A DNA stretch of 35,632 nucleotides from Nitrospirota bacterium. GTDB lineage: Bacteria; Nitrospirota; Thermodesulfovibrionia; Thermodesulfovibrionales; UBA1546. Positions 23,134 to 34,996 of the stretch are shown one piece after another (the stretch's first letter is position 1; every line of letters starts with the position of its first letter). Made by a program: the position numbers and the translations under genes. A model generated the notes under the pieces. The model saw only the letters and a program-made list of their open reading frames with translations. It had not been told where the DNA came from and did no database searches. The stretch lies in NCBI GenBank assembly GCA_026387575.1, contig JAPLLK010000083.1, positions 1 through 35,632 of the forward strand, given 5' to 3'.

Positions 23134-25583
23134 AGAGATTCCAGCAATTTCACAGCCTTAAGCCCGTTAACCTTCTCGCCGGCATGCTGAATATAAAAAA
23201 CATCCTGAGCAATGCCTGATTCAGTATTAACCCTTGCCGATATTATGTTTAACCCGCTTTCATGCATAAGATTAGACACATCATAGAGAAGGCCGTGCCT
23301 GTCCTGTGAGAAAAACTCAACAACCGTGCTTTCCTCGGAGGTCTCATTATCAAGTTCCACAAACACATCAAATTTTCCGCTAACCTCTTTTGCGATACCA
23401 CACAGGTTTATTGCTCCGCCTCCTGCTGCAACATTCTTCAGCCCGTTTTTAATAACATCTTCCATTTCATTCCACCAGAGTTCTTTCCAGTTTGAAATTT
23501 GAATTTTATCAATAACAAGTCCATTTTTACCAGTATACAGCCTTGCCCTTACTATATTCAGCCATTTTGAGGAGAGAAACCCAACTATCCGTGAAAAAAG
23601 TCCGGGACTGTCCCATGCGCTCACTGTTATCTCTGTTGTGCCGTGTGATTTTTCGCTTATTGATACCGCAAAACCGTCACTCCGGACACCGCATGCAAGG
23701 TTGTAATCCTCCTGGATTTTTTCAGGAGGCGTTGAGAGCAGATACCTCTCAGGCATCTCATTCAGGAAACTGCTTAACCCCTCTCTGTCAGCATCCGCAG
23801 AGAAAGACAGAATACTTTCAATATAAGCGGCAGGGTCTTTTCTTATTCCGCGGAGATGATTTAAGGTCCTTTCATAGAGTTCTTTAAGGAGATAAGCCTT
23901 CCACTCTGTCCAGAAATCAGGATTGACAGCAGACATATCTGCGTATGTCATAAGAAAGAGCGCCGTAAGGCTTTCCTCGTCACTTACTGAATCAGCAAAC
24001 TGCGCTATAACTTCAGTATCCTCAAGCTCCCTTTTTAATGCAAAAACAGACATCAGAATATGGTTTCTAACAAGGAATTCTATCCTCTGCCGTTTCTCAA
24101 TATCAATGTTGCATCTCTCCACAATATTTTTAAGCCTTTTATATCCTTCTTCTTCGTGATATCTGCCCACAGCCTTGCCTATGTCGTGAAAGAGCAATGC
24201 CATAAATAGTATTTCTCTTTCCTTTATATTCTTCATAATCTCGGCAAGATGTTCAAGGTTTTTATACTTTGTAACTGTCAATAGCTCAAGGTTCCTTATT
24301 GCAAGCATTGTATGCTCATCAACAGTATATCTATGAAAAGGCTCATGAATCACAAGAGACTTCAAGGAGCCAAATTCAGGAATAAATCTTCCAAGCACGC
24401 CTGTCTCATGCATTTCTCTGAGGGTTTCATATACCCTTCTGCCCCTAAATATCTCAAGAAAGAATGATACAGCCCTATGCGAATTCCTGACCTTTCTGCC
24501 CACTAAGAGCAAATTGCATTTAATATCTTCCCTGAGAATATGACTGAAATATCTGCCTGTTTTTGAAAAGGCGTAAAAAGCCTCCATGATACTGACAGGG
24601 TCTTTTTTAAAAATACCTTTTTCTGATGAGATAATCACATCTTTATACAAAAGGAAATTATCCGTTATTTTTTTCTTTCTTACTCCTCCCCGGTTTCCTG
24701 TGGTCAACCATTGCCTGAGACACATGCCTGATATTGTGGATGTTATTTCCTTTACGGCGCTTGCCTTAAGATAAAAATACCGCATAAACCTCTCTGATCC
24801 CGAAAACTTCTTTGAATCATTAAACCCCAGCTTTTTTGAAACATAATCATGGACGATGAATGAAAGAGTGTCATCCCTTCTGTTGCTTATGAGATGCAGA
24901 CAGAATCTCACTTTCAGCAGAAAATCATATGCCTTAATAAGCCTCCTGAAATCATTCCTTGAGATAACATCTGACATGCCTTCAATGTTATTAATCTTCA
25001 ATGCAATCTTTGAAAGCCATAACACTGCATGTATGTCCCTAAGCCCTCCCTGCCCTTCCTTTACATTCGGTTCAAGAAGAAACACAGAACCGCCGAAGTC
25101 CCTGTGCCTCTTCTCCATTTCTTTCAGCTTCCCGCTTATAAAATTCTTCTGCTTTCTATATGCAAGCTCAGGATAAACTTTCTTATGAAAGTAGTTGTAG
25201 AGTTCTCTGTCCCCGGCAATAAACCTCGCTTCAAGCAGAGATGTATGCGTCCGCAGGTCTTTTTTTGCCTCTGCAATACATTCATCAGGAGTCCTGAAGC
25301 AGTGCCCTATTGTAAGCCCTGCATCCCAGAGGTTATAAAGCACGGATTCAACCTTTTTTGAATCCGTCTTATCCTCTGCAAAAAACATAATATCAATATC
25401 AGAATAAGGAGCAAGTTCCGCCCTGCCGTATCCTCCGATTGCAATAAGTGCGATAGTTTTTTTTGATTCTATCGAAGTGAAAATTTCTGAAAGCAAAGTG
25501 TCTACTTTTTGAGTGTAAAAAGCTGCCAGCCCGCGGCCGTTTAAGCCGTCAAAAACCTCTTCGATATCCTTCAAAAAGTCCAT
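23112..25583 (-). CDS. glnD: PII uridylyltransferase / uridylyl-removing enzyme GlnD
   Basis: 823 residues. Senses glutamine and adds UMP to, or removes it from, the PII signal protein, controlling nitrogen assimilation. Domain order is complete: nucleotidyltransferase with GGYGRAELAPYSDIDIMFF (residues about 49-67), a GlnD-type helical region (VKEGQGGLRDIHAVLWLSK), HD phosphohydrolase domain with HDIGK (His466-Asp467), and two ACT domains (about 650-720, SAWDSPGLFSRIVGFL; about 750-823, DRHGLLYDVSNLMHESGLNI). No glnB or glnK is in the window. Slightly shorter than the E. coli enzyme (890). First gene of the tamB-omp85 run. Confidence 0.95.
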   Translation of the reverse strand: MDFLKDIEEVFDGLNGRGLAAFYTQKVDTLLSEIFTSIESKKTIALIAIGGYGRAELAPYSDIDIMFFAEDKTDSKKVESVLYNLWDAGLTIGHCFRTPDECIAEAKKDLRTHTSLLEARFIAGDRELYNYFHKKVYPELAYRKQKNFISGKLKEMEKRHRDFGGSVFLLEPNVKEGQGGLRDIHAVLWLSKIALKINNIEGMSDVISRNDFRRLIKAYDFLLKVRFCLHLISNRRDDTLSFIVHDYVSKKLGFNDSKKFSGSERFMRYFYLKASAVKEITSTISGMCLRQWLTTGNRGGVRKKKITDNFLLYKDVIISSEKGIFKKDPVSIMEAFYAFSKTGRYFSHILREDIKCNLLLVGRKVRNSHRAVSFFLEIFRGRRVYETLREMHETGVLGRFIPEFGSLKSLVIHEPFHRYTVDEHTMLAIRNLELLTVTKYKNLEHLAEIMKNIKEREILFMALLFHDIGKAVGRYHEEEGYKRLKNIVERCNIDIEKRQRIEFLVRNHILMSVFALKRELEDTEVIAQFADSVSDEESLTALFLMTYADMSAVNPDFWTEWKAYLLKELYERTLNHLRGIRKDPAAYIESILSFSADADREGLSSFLNEMPERYLLSTPPEKIQEDYNLACGVRSDGFAVSISEKSHGTTEITVSAWDSPGLFSRIVGFLSSKWLNIVRARLYTGKNGLVIDKIQISNWKELWWNEMEDVIKNGLKNVAAGGGAINLCGIAKEVSGKFDVFVELDNETSEESTVVEFFSQDRHGLLYDVSNLMHESGLNIISARVNTESGIAQDVFYIQHAGEKVNGLKAVKLLESLWKNLKG

Positions 25584-25666
25584 CTAGTATGATACTATAT
25601 GCAGCAGGATTAAGAGTAGGGATGAGTGGACAGAAACTCGGAGATATTAATAGATCATGCAGGGCT

Positions 25667-25798
25667 TTATGCAATTATGGGAAGATTGTATGATGCGCAC
25701 AAATACATCATCTGAAACCGTCCTATCCCTTTTATTTTTCGCTTCACTTCTTTGAAACTCCGTTCCACTACATTGGTCGTCCGTATCAAATTAAAACC
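25667..25798 (-). mobile_element. C-terminal scrap of an IS256-type (mutator) transposase
   Basis: The leftward frame directly after the hypC stop reads GFNLIRTTNVVERSFKEV then KRKIKGIGRFQMM..., ending at TAA 25667-25669. The pattern L-x-RTTNxxERxxxExxRR-x-K-x-xGxF is diagnostic for the C-terminus of IS256-family transposases. Only about 43 codons remain, with no DDE catalytic residues, so the element is dead. It is in the same frame as hypC, separated only by that gene's TAA, meaning the deletion or insertion endpoint lies at the hypC 3' end. I saw no matching terminal inverted repeat in the flanking 200 bases. Confidence 0.75.
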
Positions 25799-28118: not shown

Positions 28119-31100
28119 ATGGCTATATCAAGACGTGATTTCTTGAAGTTCTCAGGCGGCACTGCTGTTGCGGCCGGGGCTGCAAGCCTTGGCCTTGCAC
28201 CTGAAGAGGCAGCAGCAAAGGAAATTGAACTCCGCACAAAAGGGGCAAAGGAGACAAAAACTATCTGTCCTTACTGCTCAGTAGGGTGCGGTATTGTTGT
28301 CCACACAAAAGATGGCAAGGTCATCAACACAGAAGGTGACACAGAGCATCCAATTAGCGAAGGAACCCTTTGCTCCAAAGGATCATCGCTCTATCAGATT
28401 ATCAATAATCCTGCGCGGCTTACAAAGCCAAAATACCGCGCTGCGGGCGCCTCTGAATGGAAAGAGGTTGAATGGGACTGGACGCTTGACGAGATCGCAA
28501 AAAGAATAAAAGCTACACGTGACAAGACTTTTAAAACTACCTCAAAATCAAAAATGAAAGAAAAACAGCCTGACGGCACAGAGAAAGAAGTAGAGAAGGA
28601 TTTTGTAGTAAACAGGACAGACGGAATTTCCCATGTCGGAAGCGCAGCACTTGACAACGAAGAATGCTACATGCTTCAGAAACTACTCCGCTCATGGGGC
28701 CTTGTCTATATAGAACATCAGGCACGAATATGACACTCCGCTACTGTAGCGGCTCTGGCAGAGTCGTTTGGTCGCGGTGCGATGACAAATCACTGGATTG
28801 ATTTCAAAAATGCAGATGTGATTCTTGTAATGGGCTCAAACCCAGCAGAGAATCATCCTATATCAATGAAGTGGATAATGAAGGCAAAGGAACAACGTGG
28901 CGCAAAACTCATTGTCGTTGACCCGCGCTTTACAAGAACAGCTTCAAAGGCAGACATATACGCTCCGATGCGTTCAGGGGCTGACATCGCTTTCCTTGGA
29001 GGTATGATTAAGTACATCATTGACCATAACCTCCACTTTAAAGAATACGTTACGAACTATACCAATGCAGCATATCTTGTAAACCCTGATTTTAAGGGCC
29101 CGGGAGAACTTAATGGCATATTCTCCGGATACGATGAAAAGGCAAGGAACTATGACAAAAAGACATGGTCTTTTCAGATGGATGAAAATGGACTTCCGAA
29201 AAAAGACATGACTCTAAAAAATCCGGCCTGCGTATTCCAGCTTATGAGGAAACATTACTCAAGATATACGCTTGATAAGGTCTAGTTGTACGCGATGGGC
29301 TGGACCCAGCATACCGTTGGCACGCAGAACATCAGGGCAATGACTATAATTCAACTCCTCCTCGGAAACATTGGAATGGCAGGAGGCGGAATCAACGCGC
29401 TCAGGGGAGAATCCAATGTTCAGGGTTCAACAGACCATGGGCTTCTCTTCCATATATTGCCAGGATATATGCCTGTTCCTTCAGCATCGATAACTGACCT
29501 GCAGACATATATTGAGAAACACACTCCAAAGACAAAAGACCCAAAGAGCGTGAACTGGTGGAGCAACAGAAACAAGTACATTATCAGCTATCTCAAGGCG
29601 ATTTATGGAAGCAAGGCAGTGAAAGAAAATGATTTTGGATATTCATGGCTTCCAAAGCTTGACGAGGGTCAAAACGGCTCATGGCTTGTGCTCTTTGACC
29701 ATATGCTTAAGGGGAAATTTGAAGGGTTTTTTGCATGGGGACAGAACCCTGCATGTTCTGGAGCGAATGCGAATAAGACACGAAAGGCTCTCGCCAAACT
29801 AAAATGGATGGTCAATGTCAATCTCTTTGACAATGAGACAGGCTCGTTCTGGAGAGGACCCGGCATGAATCCAAAGGAAATTCAGACAGAGGTATTCATG
29901 CTTCCCTGCGCCTCCTCGGTTGAAAAGGAAGGGAGCATCACAAATTCAGGAAGGCTTGCCCAGTGGAGATATAAGGCCATCGAGCCTATCGGAGAATCGA
30001 AACCCGACTCTGAGATAATGAACGAACTTTACTTCAGGGTAAAGAAGCTCTATCAGAAACAAGGCGGCAAATTCCCTGATCCGATCATCAATCTTACCTG
30101 GAATTACGGTGAGAAAGACGCCGGCGGTAAGATCAAGGAAGTAGACACCCATAAAATTGCAAAAGAGATTAACGGATATTACCTTGAAGACCTTGTAGAC
30201 AAAAAAGTCACTCCTCCAAAGACAATCGGCAAAAAAGGACATTTATGCACAAACTTTGTCACATTACAGGCAGACGGCACAACATCCTGTGGATGTTGGA
30301 TTTTCAGCGGAAGTTATACTGAGAAAGACGATAAGATTGTAAATATGATGGCAAGAAGAGGCAAGAAGGATATTGGCGACCTTGGTCTTTATCCTGAGTG
30401 GGCGTGGTGCTGGCCTATAAACAGGAGGATAATTTACAACCGAGCATCAGTTGACCTGAATGGAAAGCCGTGGGATCCAAAGAGAACAGTTATTAAATGG
30501 AATCCCAATAAGCTCGATCCTAAGACAAAACAGACAGCTCCTGGATGGGAAGGAGATGTGCCTGATGGACCTGCGCCTCCTATGGCTGATGAGAAAGCAG
30601 GGAAATATCCGTTTATCATGAAAACAGACGGCAGGGGCGCAATATTCGGACCGGGTCTTGTTGACGGTCCGTTCCCTGAACATTATGAGGCATTGGAATG
30701 TCCTATTCAGGAAAATCCGCTCTCCAGTAAGCACAGGATAAGTCCTACTGTAAAACTGTTTTATGGTGTTAAGGGGCCTCATGATGCACCTGCAGAAAAA
30801 GGTGGTCTACTGCCGGAAGACGTATTCTTCTCATGCGACATAAGGTATCCATACGTTGCGACTACATATCGTGTATCAGAGCACTGGCAGACAGGGGTTA
30901 TGACGAGACACCAGCCATGGTTACTTGAATCCATGCCCCAGCAATTTGTTGAGATGAGCGAAGAGCTTGCAAAAGAAAAGGGCATTAAATCAGGAGACAA
31001 AATAAAGGTTAAATCTGGACGTGGTGAGATTATGGCAGTTGCGGTAGTAACTAAGAGATTCAAACCCTTTAAAGTAGTGGGAAGCACTGTTCATCAGGTA

Positions 31101-31268
31101 GGCCTTCCATGGTGTTTTGGCTGGCAGTATCCTGAGGATGGCAGCGGAGGAGACAGCTCTAATCTTCTTACGCCGACTATCGGAGATTCAAATACACTGA
31201 TACCTGAGACAAAGGCATTTATGGTCAATATTGAAAAGGTCAAGGAGGAGATATATGGCAAAAAATGA
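28119..31268 (+). CDS. Formate dehydrogenase alpha subunit, selenocysteine type, with an additional in-frame TAG
   Basis: Read as one gene of about 1,049 codons. Oxidises formate to CO2 at a molybdenum/tungsten bis-pterin site in the periplasm. A twin-arginine signal (SRRDFLKF, residues 4-11) directs export; a [4Fe-4S] site uses Cys50, 53, 57 and 85. TGA 28731-28733 (codon 205) falls exactly at the selenocysteine of FdnG/FdoG: QARI-U-HSATVAALAESFGRGAMTNHW. Downstream, codon 389 is TAG (29283-29285), in the same frame, between SRYTLDKV and LYAMGWTQHTVG; about 29 residues present in FdnG at this place are absent. If real, the TAG disrupts the enzyme; otherwise it is an assembly collapse. The rest (to YGKK) aligns throughout with FdnG-type enzymes. 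The 3' end overlaps the beta-subunit gene by 14 bases. Confidence 0.9.
28744..28761 (+). promoter_or_regulatory. Candidate bacterial SECIS hairpin for formate dehydrogenase alpha
   Basis: After the TGA at 28731, CTGTAG (28744-28749) can pair with CT-GCAG (28755-28761, one bulged G), including a U-G pair, closing the loop CGGCT. The loop guanines lie 17-18 bases after the TGA, the place where the SelB-binding loop sits in E. coli fdhF/fdnG. An alternative fold, CCGCTAC/GTAGCGG at 28738-28752, would compete. Hand-folded only. Confidence 0.45.
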
Positions 31269-32046
31269 AAAAAAACCCATAGGTGCATTGATAGATTTAA
31301 CCAAGTGCATCGGCTGCAGGGGTTGCCAAATTGCATGTAAAAGCTGGAATAACCGCGCTGTAAAGAAAACGGTAATGACAGGGAATTTCACGAACCCCAT
31401 TGACCTTAACTCCGAGACATATACGATGATCAAATATGTCGAGAAGGAGCAGGACGCGCTCATGGAGTGGGATTTTATTAAGGTACAGTGCATGCACTGT
31501 AAAAATCCTGCCTGTGTCTCTGCATGTCCTGTTGGAGCGTTCCAAAAGAGTCCTGAAGGACCGGTAATGTATGAACCCGAGAAGTGCATAGGATGTCGTT
31601 ATTGCATGATGGCCTGTCCTTTCCAGATTCCAAAATATGAATGGGAGAAAGTATCTCCTGTCGTTCAGAAATGTACATTCTGTGCTGAAAGGATTTCCGA
31701 AGGATTAATCCCTGCATGTGTAAAAACATGTCCTCCAAAGGCTATTATCTTTGGAACTTACGAAGAGATCCTGGCTGAGGCTGAAAAGAGGATTAAGGAA
31801 AATCCAAAAAAATATGTAAACCATATCTATGGTAAGGAAGAAGCAGGTGGCACTTCATGGCTCTATCTGTCTTCTGTCCCATTTGAAACGCTCGGCTTCA
31901 AGATGAATATCCCGAAGAGGCCGTTGCCGGATCTCACGTGGGCATCGCTTTCTAAAATACCTGTGACAGTAGGCAGTCTGGCATTAATCCTCTCTGCAAT
32001 AGCATATATAAGGAACCGCGGAGAAAACAATAAGGAGGAAAAATAA
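31255..32046 (+). CDS. Formate dehydrogenase beta subunit (four [4Fe-4S] ferredoxin-like)
   Basis: 263 residues. ATG 31255 follows AAGGAGGAG with good spacing inside the end of the alpha gene; the frame is open earlier but without a start signal. Four cysteine clusters carry electrons from alpha to the membrane subunit: CIGCRGCQIAC, CMHCKNPACVSACP, CIGCRYCMMACP and CTFCAE...CVKTCPPKAI. A single C-terminal membrane helix (about 235-253, VTVGSLALILSAIAYI) anchors it, as in FdnH. No signal peptide: it should be carried across the membrane with the Tat-targeted alpha subunit. Its stop overlaps the next ATG by one base (TAATG). Confidence 0.95.
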   Translation: MAKNEKKPIGALIDLTKCIGCRGCQIACKSWNNRAVKKTVMTGNFTNPIDLNSETYTMIKYVEKEQDALMEWDFIKVQCMHCKNPACVSACPVGAFQKSPEGPVMYEPEKCIGCRYCMMACPFQIPKYEWEKVSPVVQKCTFCAERISEGLIPACVKTCPPKAIIFGTYEEILAEAEKRIKENPKKYVNHIYGKEEAGGTSWLYLSSVPFETLGFKMNIPKRPLPDLTWASLSKIPVTVGSLALILSAIAYIRNRGENNKEEK

Positions 32047-33182
32047 TGGCTGCATACAAAGAAAGAAAAAATGTATCATTTTTTTCCAGGGGCACAATGA
32101 TTCTCCTAATACTTCTTGGAATCGCTGCTTTTGCAGCCCTTTACCGATTTACATATGGGTTAGGAGCAGCAACAGATATGAGTGATAAGGTGCCTTGGGG
32201 ATTGTGGGTTGCATTTGATGTGCTTGCTGGTGTTGCACTTGCTGCTGGAGGATTTGGCATAACTGCAGCTGTCTATATCTTTAACATGAAAAAGTACAAA
32301 CCAATCGCACGGCCTGCTATACTTACTGCCTTTATCGGCTACCTGATAGTCATAATCGGGCTTGTAATTGACATAGGTCAGCCAACAAGGTTCTGGCATC
32401 CGCTTGTAATGTGGCAGCATAAGTCTATCATGTTCGAGGTCGTATGGTGCATATCACTCTACACTACGGTGCTCGCAATCGAGTTCACACCACCGGTTCT
32501 CGAAAGGCTTAGATGGACAGGCCTTTTGAAGATAATTAAATTCTTCACATATCCGATTGTGATAGCAGGAATTATCCTGTCTTTTCTGCATCAGTCTTCT
32601 CTTGGAGCATTCTTCCTTATAATGCCCAGCAAGCTTAATGCATTGTGGTATTCTCCCATAATGCCTCAGATGTTTTATATATCTGCAATTGCTGTAGGTC
32701 TTTCAATGGTATCAATTGAATCCATTGTAAGTGCATGGGCATTTAAGAGAGAGTATGAGCCAGGGATTATTAAAGGGCTTGGTAAAGGTGTAGCAATAAC
32801 CCTTCTTGTTTATCTTGTTGTGAAGATTGCAGATCTTATTGTAAGAGGTAAGTTCTCTATGGTATTTGATGGAAGCACAGCGAGCAGATTTTATCTTATA
32901 GAGATATTTATGGGTGTGATAATTCCAATGATACTTCTTTCAACCCAAAAAATACGGGAATCTATAGGAGGCACCTTTATATCAGCAATGCTTGTTGTAG
33001 GCGGAGTTCTCATGAACAGGTTCAATACGAACTTTTTCTCGCAGGTAGGTAATGGAGTTTCGTACTTCCCCACATGGAGAGAGTTTGCAATAACAATTGG
33101 ATTGGTATCATTAGGGATTATACTTTACAGGCTTGCTGTCATATTCCTGCCGGTATTCGAAGAGGCAGAAGCCGAACACTAA
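32046..33182 (+). CDS. NrfD/HybB-type membrane quinone-reactive subunit of formate dehydrogenase
   Basis: 378 residues with about ten membrane helices and no haem-ligating b-type pattern, so this complex uses a NrfD/PsrC/HybB-like subunit in place of the FdnI cytochrome b. Diagnostic stretches: YRFTYGLGAATDMSDKVPWG, 'WVAFDVLAGVALAAGGFG', DIGQPTRFWHPLVMWQHKS. HybB-like subunits pass electrons to menaquinone. It overlaps the beta gene by one base and is followed by a strong terminator, so alpha-beta-gamma form the operon. Confidence 0.93.
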   Translation: MAAYKERKNVSFFSRGTMILLILLGIAAFAALYRFTYGLGAATDMSDKVPWGLWVAFDVLAGVALAAGGFGITAAVYIFNMKKYKPIARPAILTAFIGYLIVIIGLVIDIGQPTRFWHPLVMWQHKSIMFEVVWCISLYTTVLAIEFTPPVLERLRWTGLLKIIKFFTYPIVIAGIILSFLHQSSLGAFFLIMPSKLNALWYSPIMPQMFYISAIAVGLSMVSIESIVSAWAFKREYEPGIIKGLGKGVAITLLVYLVVKIADLIVRGKFSMVFDGSTASRFYLIEIFMGVIIPMILLSTQKIRESIGGTFISAMLVVGGVLMNRFNTNFFSQVGNGVSYFPTWREFAITIGLVSLGIILYRLAVIFLPVFEEAEAEH

Positions 33183-33237: not shown

Positions 33238-33828
33238 ATGAGAACAAGATTAAGTATAATTATTCTGCTTCTTGTTTATACAATTGCCCTTGCTGAAGAA
33301 CAGCGATATAACATACCTATTGGAAATTCTCCCCAAAAAGGCCCTGCAAATGCTCCTGTAACGATAATAGAATTCCTTGATTACCAGTGACCTCATTGCG
33401 CTGCGGCCGGTCCGGTCGTTGATAAACTGACAAGGGAATACAAGGACAAAATAAGGCTCATTGTAAAACATTATCCTTACAAATATAGAGACTTCTCGCA
33501 TATCGCAGCAGAGGCTGCAATGGCTGCCAATGACCACGGCAAGTTCTGGGAGATGCACCACCTAATGCTCAAGAAATCCCCCCAGCTTGACAGAGAAAGC
33601 CTTATTAAATATGCAAAAGAGATAAATCTGGACATAAAAGCCTTCACAGAATCTCTCGACAAGATGAAACACTCTGCAATAATAGAGCGGGATAAAAAAC
33701 TTGCAATTGAAATGGATTTATACAACACGCCTACGCTTTTTATTAACGGCAGAAAGGTCATAGGGAACAGGACTTATGAATATTTAAAGAAAATTATTGA
33801 GGAGGAGTTAAGAAATGCAAAAAAATAA
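33238..33828 (+). CDS. Selenocysteine-containing DsbA-like thiol oxidoreductase (U-P-H-C active site)
   Basis: 196 residues if TGA 33388-33390 (codon 51) is read as selenocysteine. ATG 33238 has CAAGGA upstream and starts a signal peptide (MRTRLSIIILLLVYTIALA). Then VTIIEFLDYQ-U-PHC: DsbA/Com1-type periplasmic proteins have 'DFQCPYC' here, so TGA replaces the first, nucleophilic cysteine of CxxC. After it the frame stays open for 145 codons with the family's helical insert (FSHIAAEAAMAANDHGKFWE), the cis-proline loop 'DLYNTPTLFINGRKV' and the C-terminal helix. A SECIS-like hairpin follows the TGA. Conventional calling would start at 33520 and lose the active site. It overlaps the cytochrome c peroxidase gene by 14 bases. 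Likely role: disulfide or peroxide redox chemistry in the periplasm. Alternative: a nonsense-mutated gene, less likely given the hairpin and its spacing. Confidence 0.88.
33403..33419 (+). promoter_or_regulatory. Bacterial SECIS element of the DsbA-like selenoprotein
   Basis: GCGGCC (33403-33408) pairs with GGTCGT (33414-33419; two G-U pairs), closing the five-base loop GGTCC at 33409-33413. In E. coli fdhF the SelB-contacting loop is GGTCT and begins 18 bases after the TGA; here it also begins 18 bases after TGA 33388-33390. Fold done by hand. Confidence 0.75.
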
Positions 33829-34996
33829 TAATATTGATAAGGTGATACAGAAGATGACATCTTCTGTCATTCCAGCTTGTCGGGAATCATTCTCCCGATG
33901 CTTCGGGATTCGGAATCGTAAGAAAGATTGCGGACAAGTCGGAATGACAATATATACATTCTTAATACTGTTTCTTTTTGTGTTCCAGTCGTCTTCCTAT
34001 GCAGGCCACTTTGAGCCCCTTAAATCAATCCCCGTGCCTAAAAATAATCCGCAGACACCAGATAAGATAGAACTTGGCAAAAAACTTTTCTTTGACAGAA
34101 GGCTTTCAGGCGACGGCACAATGAGCTGCGCAACATGCCATATGCCGGAACATGCATTCACAGACGGACAGGACATATCGTTAAGCTATCCGACAACAAA
34201 GAACTGGAGGAACTCTCTAACACTGATAAACGCTGCTTTTCAAAAACATCTTTTTCATGATGGAAGGGCTAAATCACTTGAAGAGCAGGCGCTCTTTCCA
34301 TTGATGTCTGCATTTGAGATGAACCAGAACCTTGACTTTGTTGAGGAGGAACTAAGAGTAGTGCCTGAATATGCTGAGGCTTTCAAGAAAATATTTGGAG
34401 GCGAGGTTACACGGGAGAGGATTGCCATGGCCATTGCATCATTTGAAAGGACTTTAATCTCTGTTAATTCACCGCTTGATAAATATCTCAATGGCGACAA
34501 AAAAGCCTTATCACAGGATGCAAAAAAAGGGCTTGAGATATTTAAAGGCAAGGGAAAGTGCGCTGACTGCCACTATGGAGTAAATTTAGCCGACGACAAA
34601 TTCTATGCATTGAATGTACTTGAAAACCCTGCCCTTCTGAATGATCCAAGGGTTACTGCGACAATGAGATTTGTGGCAAAGGTCTATCATTACAAAGACT
34701 ATAAAAACCTCAAGGAAGATCCCGGCAGATACCTGATTACAAAAAAGAAAAAGGACTGGAAAGCTTTCAGGACACCTACATTAAGAGATATCTCAAAGAC
34801 AGGCCCGTACATGCATAACGGAGTATTCAACACTCTTGATGAGGTCGTAGAATTTTTTAACATGGGCGGGGGCAAAGGGAATAAAGTTCTCAAGCCGCTG
34901 GGGTTAACGGATAATGAAAAAAAATACCTGAAGACATTTCTTGTTGAAGCGCTTACAGGAGAGGATATAGTTATAAAATATCCGCAGGTGCCCTGA
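33815..34996 (+). CDS. Di-haem cytochrome c peroxidase (MauG/CcpA family)
   Basis: 393 residues. Reduces hydrogen peroxide in the periplasm with electrons from cytochrome c. Two c-type haem sites: C105-ATC-H109 and C249-ADC-H253, in the usual two-domain layout; also LGKKLFFDRRLSGDGTMSC and TPTLRDISKTGPYMHNGVF, typical of the family. GGAGGAG sits ahead of ATG 33815, inside the end of the selenoprotein gene, so translation is coupled. The signal peptide (TIYTFLILFLFVFQSSSYAG) begins only near residue 44; residues about 17-44 are encoded by a dispersed inverted repeat. ATG 33944 is the alternative start but has no ribosome site. Pairing with a selenoprotein oxidoreductase suggests an oxidative-defence unit. 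Confidence 0.93.
   Translation: MQKNNNIDKVIQKMTSSVIPACRESFSRCFGIRNRKKDCGQVGMTIYTFLILFLFVFQSSSYAGHFEPLKSIPVPKNNPQTPDKIELGKKLFFDRRLSGDGTMSCATCHMPEHAFTDGQDISLSYPTTKNWRNSLTLINAAFQKHLFHDGRAKSLEEQALFPLMSAFEMNQNLDFVEEELRVVPEYAEAFKKIFGGEVTRERIAMAIASFERTLISVNSPLDKYLNGDKKALSQDAKKGLEIFKGKGKCADCHYGVNLADDKFYALNVLENPALLNDPRVTATMRFVAKVYHYKDYKNLKEDPGRYLITKKKKDWKAFRTPTLRDISKTGPYMHNGVFNTLDEVVEFFNMGGGKGNKVLKPLGLTDNEKKYLKTFLVEALTGEDIVIKYPQVP
33865..33949. repeat. Dispersed element with 17-base terminal inverted repeats in the peroxidase leader
   Basis: TGTCATTCCAGCTTGTC at 33865-33881 faces GACAAGTCGGAATGACA at 33933-33949, matching at 15 of 17 positions. Between them lies the hairpin CCCGATGCTTCGGG (33894-33907). 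The 85-base unit looks like a REP or MITE-like palindromic element. It is open in the coding frame and lengthens the N-terminus of the cytochrome c peroxidase by about 28 residues. Confidence 0.75.

Follow-up and report, generated by a model that had tools for sequence, protein, structure and literature searches.

What does a DsbA-like protein do when an in-frame TGA stands at the codon for its first active-site cysteine, and when its gene lies between those for a selenocysteine (Sec) formate dehydrogenase and a cytochrome c peroxidase? The locus that raises this question is near the end of the window (the whole stretch of 35,632 nucleotides from a Nitrospirota bacterium that was analysed here). 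An earlier note on this sequence had proposed a DsbA-like selenoprotein with a UPHC active site. Two points need to be settled: whether the TGA encodes selenocysteine, and on what the protein acts. The gene, here called dsbA-U, and the elements within it are:

33238..33828, + strand: dsbA-U, predicted periplasmic DsbA-fold selenoprotein of 196 aa, with a UPHC active site and a Thr-Pro loop (T164-P165)
33388..33390, + strand: TGA, predicted codon of selenocysteine 51, with which the UPHC motif begins (supported by TGA in 80/80 homologues and by the presence of selA, selB, selC and selD)
33403..33419, + strand: SECIS-like hairpin with a 6-pair stem and a GGTCC loop at 33409-33413 (supported by covariation and by a GGT-CCG codon constraint)

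The frame opens at an ATG (33238) with a hydrophobic, signal-peptide-like export signal, passes through the active-site context LDYQ-U-PHC and stays open for 145 codons after the TGA, ending with a TAA at 33826-33828. ORF calling with the standard code recovers only 33520-33828, a fragment of 102 aa. The earlier note had described the same signal peptide, TGA and open codons, and had expected the 102-residue fragment from standard annotation; both statements held in full. The product matches PF13462 (thioredoxin_4; 3.4e-30) and PF01323 (DSBA; 2.4e-19), and its AlphaFold model (pLDDT 94.3) is a confident DsbA fold. Among solved structures, the closest folds belong to Wolbachia alpha-DsbA2, BdbD and ScsC (TM about 0.7-0.8) and to a Silicibacter oxidoreductase. 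T164-P165, the Thr-Pro preceding the substrate strand, is invariant across all aligned sequences, and the features expected of the DsbA/thioredoxin_4 clan (fold, xPHx site and Pro loop) are all present. From the sequence and predicted fold we infer that dsbA-U likely encodes an exported DsbA-fold thiol-disulfide oxidoreductase with a UPHC site. The best NCBIfam match, NF041057 (Rcas_1661 family thioredoxin-like (seleno)lipoprotein, DsbG-like), has the same fold and a UxxC motif, but membership is ruled out by a score of 81.6 against the curated cut-off of 190.

All close homologues found among 61 genomes (that of the window and its relatives) have TGA at the same active-site codon. The same is true for named genomes, where 80 of the 80 best homologues have TGA and none has Cys. 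This count covers the best 80 of 234 relatives, leaving the other 154 outside it; the scan used two patterns, one of which demanded a Cys codon at the active site. Thus, no Cys version of the subfamily was found among the best 80 of 234 loci. The earlier note had held that TGC or TGT at 33388 in relatives would refute its reading, and this is not the case. The TGA-bearing loci span two phyla, Nitrospirota and Desulfobacterota, and carriers in culture include Desulfopila aestuarii DSM 18488, Desulfofustis glycolicus DSM 9705 and Thermodesulfovibrio sp. N1. Sequencing error or a pseudogene is rejected as the origin of the TGA by its presence in 80/80 homologues, a recurrence well outside what chance would give.

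The GGTCC loop starts exactly 18 bases past the TGA, as previously noted. The loop constrains codon choice: its Gly codon is GGT in 22 of 23 dsbA-U genes (background in the same genes, 32/165), and its Pro codon is CCG in 23/23 (background 53/167). In 39 distinct sequences the six-pair hairpin has 88.9% of cells paired, versus 23-50% when the pairing is slid, a level equalled by 0 of 500 shuffles. Covariation is seen as 16 cells with double changes (C-G to U-A and G-C to A-U). A search of Rfam with the hairpin matched no family, and when the window hairpin sequence was folded alone the SECIS-like hairpin was not the predicted minimum-energy structure. The check for a bacterial SECIS proposed in the earlier note is therefore negative by Rfam and single-sequence folding, and positive by covariation and loop codons.

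The genome of the window, assembled to 1.63 Mb over 98 contigs with 92% completeness, encodes the whole Sec machinery, with tRNA-Sec (selC), selB, selA and selD all identified; selD carries a TGA itself. The search for these four genes had also been suggested, and none is missing. The selenocysteine reading is very well supported because the obligate TGA, the codon constraint with a covarying hairpin, and the full Sec machinery combine. Thus, the TGA of dsbA-U very likely encodes selenocysteine, and the original proposal of a DsbA-like selenoprotein is supported by these data and the DsbA fold, with selenium incorporation itself inferred from sequence.

The genes and sites surrounding dsbA-U that bear on its function are:

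28119..31268, + strand: fdhA, Sec formate dehydrogenase catalytic subunit with a Tat leader, interrupted
28731..28733, + strand: catalytic Sec TGA of FdhA (ARI-U-HSA), identified by aligning it with the Sec segment of formate dehydrogenases of known structure
29283..29285, + strand: in-frame TAG in fdhA at a deletion point, by comparison with relatives
30699..30701, + strand: codon for the Cys equivalent to Desulfovibrio vulgaris Cys845 (switch disulfide), by alignment
30834..30836, + strand: codon for the Cys equivalent to D. vulgaris Cys872 (switch disulfide), by alignment
31231..32046, + strand: fdhB, 4Fe-4S electron-transfer subunit, start uncertain
32046..33182, + strand: fdhC, NrfD/HybB-type membrane subunit
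33815..34996, + strand: ccp, di-haem cytochrome c peroxidase (CCP_MauG) with two CxxCH motifs, by profile match and co-occurrence with dsbA-U

The fdhA (Sec), fdhB and fdhC genes are upstream of dsbA-U and ccp is downstream. The ccp ORF overlaps dsbA-U by 14 bases, and its real start is possibly an ATG near 33944. Its haem motifs are CATCH and CADCH, and it matches PF03150 (1.1e-53) and solved peroxidases (e.g., 3hq6). As read from the sequences, FdhA has a Tat leader and both dsbA-U and ccp products have Sec-type export leaders. A MITE-like palindrome (33865-33949), with arms of 35 bases that are 80% complementary, closely follows dsbA-U and falls within the 5' end of the ccp ORF; the palindrome core is also present in L077, L087, L177 and L217.

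In relatives, the gene order is fdhA-fdhB-fdhC-dsbA(U)-ccp-fdhE, often with moeA next (FdhE and MoeA are assigned from inspection of their sequences, not from profile searches). Among the best 80 loci of named genomes, ccp adjoins dsbA-U in 76 of 77 that are testable, and fdhB is upstream in 60 of 72. A ccp orthologue occurs in 21 of the 61 genomes, every one of which has dsbA-U, and in none of the 38 genomes without it. In two further dsbA-U genomes ccp was not detected, and there the contig stops at or just past dsbA-U. In Thermodesulfovibrio-type genomes the pair adjoins fdhE-moeA, not fdhABC. In a phylum sample of 197 genomes, D. vulgaris-type FdhA is encoded in 39/39 genomes with dsbA-U versus 23/158 without. 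Most Sec-decoding relatives with selB have no dsbA-U, and a scan of viral contigs for its relatives found none. This adjacency, co-occurrence and shared presence with D. vulgaris-type FdhA show that dsbA-U and ccp behave as a two-gene cassette tied to D. vulgaris-type Sec formate dehydrogenase in Nitrospirota and Desulfobacterota. The earlier note had called the peroxidase and formate dehydrogenase context unusual, which held but was an understatement, given that the cassette is conserved.

Several variants of the locus were observed. In genome G012, dsbA-U is split over two contig ends (L061 1-380 and L060 14260-14400), and both breaks run into one and the same inverted end (GAGGCTGTCCCAAAATGA), as would be expected if an insertion sequence interrupted the gene. 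A tandem dsbA-U pair, with one TGA each, is encoded on contig 1 of G213 (24488-25795; L205). Thioredoxin-fold proteins with TGA in a UPYC motif occur in L032 (G047) and L035 (G026) and are only 27-35% identical; from sequence alone, these are likely further Sec oxidoreductase families in the same order.

The formate dehydrogenase of the window requires caution. Compared with relatives, its fdhA has the TAG where about 30 codons are missing (net deletion of 29 codons), and thus does not qualify as an intact catalytic subunit. The interruption, which the earlier note had missed, could reflect an assembly fault, or a decaying gene and loss of the enzyme in this strain. The system proposed below may consequently not work in this strain, its fdhA being interrupted. 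The functional inference on the FdhA switch rests on the relatives and not on the window's own fdhA. A second FdhA without TGA, presumably non-Sec and with both switch cysteines kept, was found in a different genome (G202 contig 40, 18523-21594; L203).

FdhA of the cassette operons aligns over its full length with D. vulgaris FdhAB (doi 10.1038/s41589-023-01484-2), and the equivalents of Sec, Met405, Cys845 and Cys872 are conserved; the cassette operons differ in having a third, membrane subunit and dsbA-U/ccp. The D. vulgaris enzyme rests in an O2-protected, nearly inactive state when its C845-C872 disulfide is formed and becomes active when the disulfide is reduced; the C872A variant is equivalent to the active form (PMC11134731, PMC11323313, PMC13397495). 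Activation in vitro was with DTT (doi 10.1038/s41589-023-01484-2, cited in PMC11323313 and PMC11134731). No link between dsbA-U and this regulatory disulfide had been drawn in the earlier note.

Both switch cysteines are present in the FdhA beside the cassette in all 57 readable loci of named genomes. Within the Nitrospirota set they occur in 44/44 genomes with the cassette versus 7/18 without. In an unbiased scan of 817 testable FdhA columns, C872 had the strongest association with the cassette (p 6e-8; next column, 2e-5), and when the shorter operons of family f10 were removed its p was 1.6e-9 versus 3e-5 for the next. These p-values carry no correction for relatedness. A correlation test on the FdhA tree favoured the dependent model over independence by 29-39 likelihood-ratio units (p 7e-8 to 8e-6 over five data subsets). 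For this test G196, whose dsbA-U is only 45% identical, solitary and without ccp, was recoded as cassette-negative, and the test was run both ways. In a stricter parsimony count, each switch Cys was lost three times, always on branches lacking the cassette and never on branches that carry it (p 0.036 for each). The switch cysteines are not top-ranked in this count, which is weaker than the likelihood test; since it sees three losses per switch Cys, the number of independent events is modest. Other FdhA cysteines were considered as the target and rejected, as they have no comparable association with the cassette.

Otherwise intact fdhABC-fdhE(-moeA) operons that lack only the cassette carry R, N, G or A in place of C872. 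Several cassette-less genomes encode a close FdhA (82-84% identity to the query) in which position 872 is Arg, Asn or Gly, and G020 (cassette-less, with Ala) belongs to the same genus as G042, which has the cassette and keeps the Cys pair. Together, these data show an evolutionary linkage of the cassette to the FdhA switch cysteines.

The linkage has exceptions. Both switch cysteines are retained in seven genomes in which no cassette was detected; four of these belong to family f10 and have a shorter fdhAB operon. The switch also exists in D. vulgaris FdhAB (the presence of the cassette in D. vulgaris is not among our data). Therefore, the switch is not strictly dependent on the cassette. The exceptions include G003 and G006, both members of the same genus as the window's genome. 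In G004, from this genus too, a short deletion shifts the frame of dsbA-U (L062 4838-5262), and the end of the gene diverges from homologues, which from sequence alone likely represents a recent loss. Cassette loss in the genus of G003 and G006 may therefore also be recent.

We propose that dsbA-U serves the periplasmic Sec formate dehydrogenase of its operon as a dedicated thiol-disulfide oxidoreductase, resetting the C845-C872-type disulfide, probably by reduction, while ccp removes H2O2. We place the probability of this reading at roughly 0.55; the contact, the direction of electron flow and the donor are inferred, and there is no biochemical evidence. The exported selenoprotein would act on the FdhA surface disulfide equivalent to C845-C872 of D. 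vulgaris, and on return of anoxia would reduce it, making the enzyme active. Electrons may arrive via a CcdA/DsbD-type membrane protein. The partner peroxidase would destroy H2O2 made when formate dehydrogenases meet O2, a role that fits because D. vulgaris Fdh2 turns O2 mostly into H2O2 (PMC11323313). Operation of the disulfide is the simplest role for dsbA-U because a periplasmic selenol-thiol protein lies beside an enzyme with a regulatory disulfide and is lost together with that disulfide.

With regard to direction, we identified two DsbD_TM/CcdA genes in the window's own genome. VKOR was not found in this genome (92% complete), and DsbB was found neither there nor in the cassette-bearing genomes of the relatives set. 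A classical DsbA-DsbB (or VKOR) oxidative pathway was rejected for dsbA-U on this basis, and the same gene content favours reduction over oxidation. Reduction is also favoured because loss of the reductase would leave the enzyme locked in the inactive state, and this would explain the replacement of C872. CPHC motifs are often oxidising, and this counts against a reductase role. The Thermodesulfovibrio-type arrangement, with the cassette away from fdhABC, also counts against the proposal.

The alternative that survives best, although unlikely, has the same FdhA target and the opposite direction: dsbA-U would sense oxidant, with peroxide acting on it either directly or through the peroxidase, and would oxidise the FdhA cysteines, closing the protective switch. 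In its favour, UPHC resembles oxidising CPHC sites, a partner that handles H2O2 is always there, and linkage of cassette to switch is compatible with both directions. Against it are the gene content described above (DsbD_TM/CcdA genes but no VKOR found in the window's genome, and no DsbB in relatives with the cassette) and the pattern of loss, as losing an oxidant would leave idle cysteines whereas losing a reductase would leave an unswitchable enzyme, the better fit to C872 replacement.

It is also doubtful that the peroxidase is the client, with dsbA-U keeping the CxxCH cysteines reduced or repairing ccp and the pair detoxifying H2O2 near formate dehydrogenase. The peroxidase gene is the most constant neighbour (76/77) and usually overlaps dsbA-U, and some loci have the pair without adjacent fdhABC. 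However, this would leave unexplained why, of the FdhA residues, C872 shows the strongest association with the cassette.

A role as a general periplasmic disulfide oxidoreductase, placed in the operon merely by co-regulation with anaerobic, selenium-dependent genes, is very improbable. The DsbA fold is generic and its clan is rich in general-purpose members, but D. vulgaris-type FdhA accompanies dsbA-U in every genome of the phylum sample that has it, most selB-bearing Sec-decoding relatives lack dsbA-U, and the link is specific to a single FdhA residue. That dsbA-U is no selenoprotein, its TGA being a genuine stop, an error or a pseudogene, finds support in the single-sequence fold and the absent Rfam match, but is all but excluded by the invariant TGA with no Cys form and an open frame beyond it, the loop codons and covariation, and the presence of selA, selB, selC and selD.

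DsbA-like UxxC selenoproteins have been known since surveys of the Sargasso Sea and of bacteria in 2005-2006 (PMC1088965, PMC1794560), so the statement in the earlier note that such proteins had been reported is correct, and the class is established; a review lists DsbA-like protein form 1 under PF01323 with UxxC (PMC13188914). Like dsbA-U, these proteins have a DsbA/thioredoxin_4 fold, Sec first in UxxC and a bacterial SECIS just downstream. The Sargasso family (COG2761) has widespread Cys homologues and is given no operon role in the sections bearing on it, whereas dsbA-U has no Cys form in the best 80 and a conserved operon with ccp and Sec formate dehydrogenase. ScsC, BdbD and Wolbachia alpha-DsbA2, among the best matches by sequence profile as well as by fold, all have Cys, and their usual clients or partners are not known to be related to formate dehydrogenase. 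The ccp product shares two CxxCH motifs with bacterial di-haem cytochrome c peroxidases (CCP_MauG) and differs in being a dedicated selenoprotein partner in a formate dehydrogenase operon. We found no description of the dsbA-U/ccp/formate dehydrogenase arrangement, and none of a function for dsbA-U, in the open-access literature searched. Thus, with the class already known, what is likely new is the operon setting and a testable, inferred functional link to the FdhA switch.

The D. vulgaris-type formate dehydrogenases are leading catalysts for CO2 reduction, with an O2 tolerance that rests on the switch disulfide, and the operator of this disulfide in vivo is not named in the literature sections bearing on it. 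The dsbA-U protein, which ordinary ORF calling reduces to a fragment, is a specific candidate for this operator and is present in cultured strains. The cassette-less FdhA with C872 replaced are natural counterparts of the laboratory C872A variant. In a bolder reading, which could as easily prove wrong as right, dsbA-U and ccp would constitute a dedicated selenium-dependent module for O2 protection and reactivation, in which one selenoenzyme operates the allosteric disulfide of another in the periplasm and loss of the module favours loss of the switch cysteine. The proposed link would assign a likely client to a member of a selenoprotein class whose functions are largely uncharacterised, according to a 2026 review (PMC13188914).
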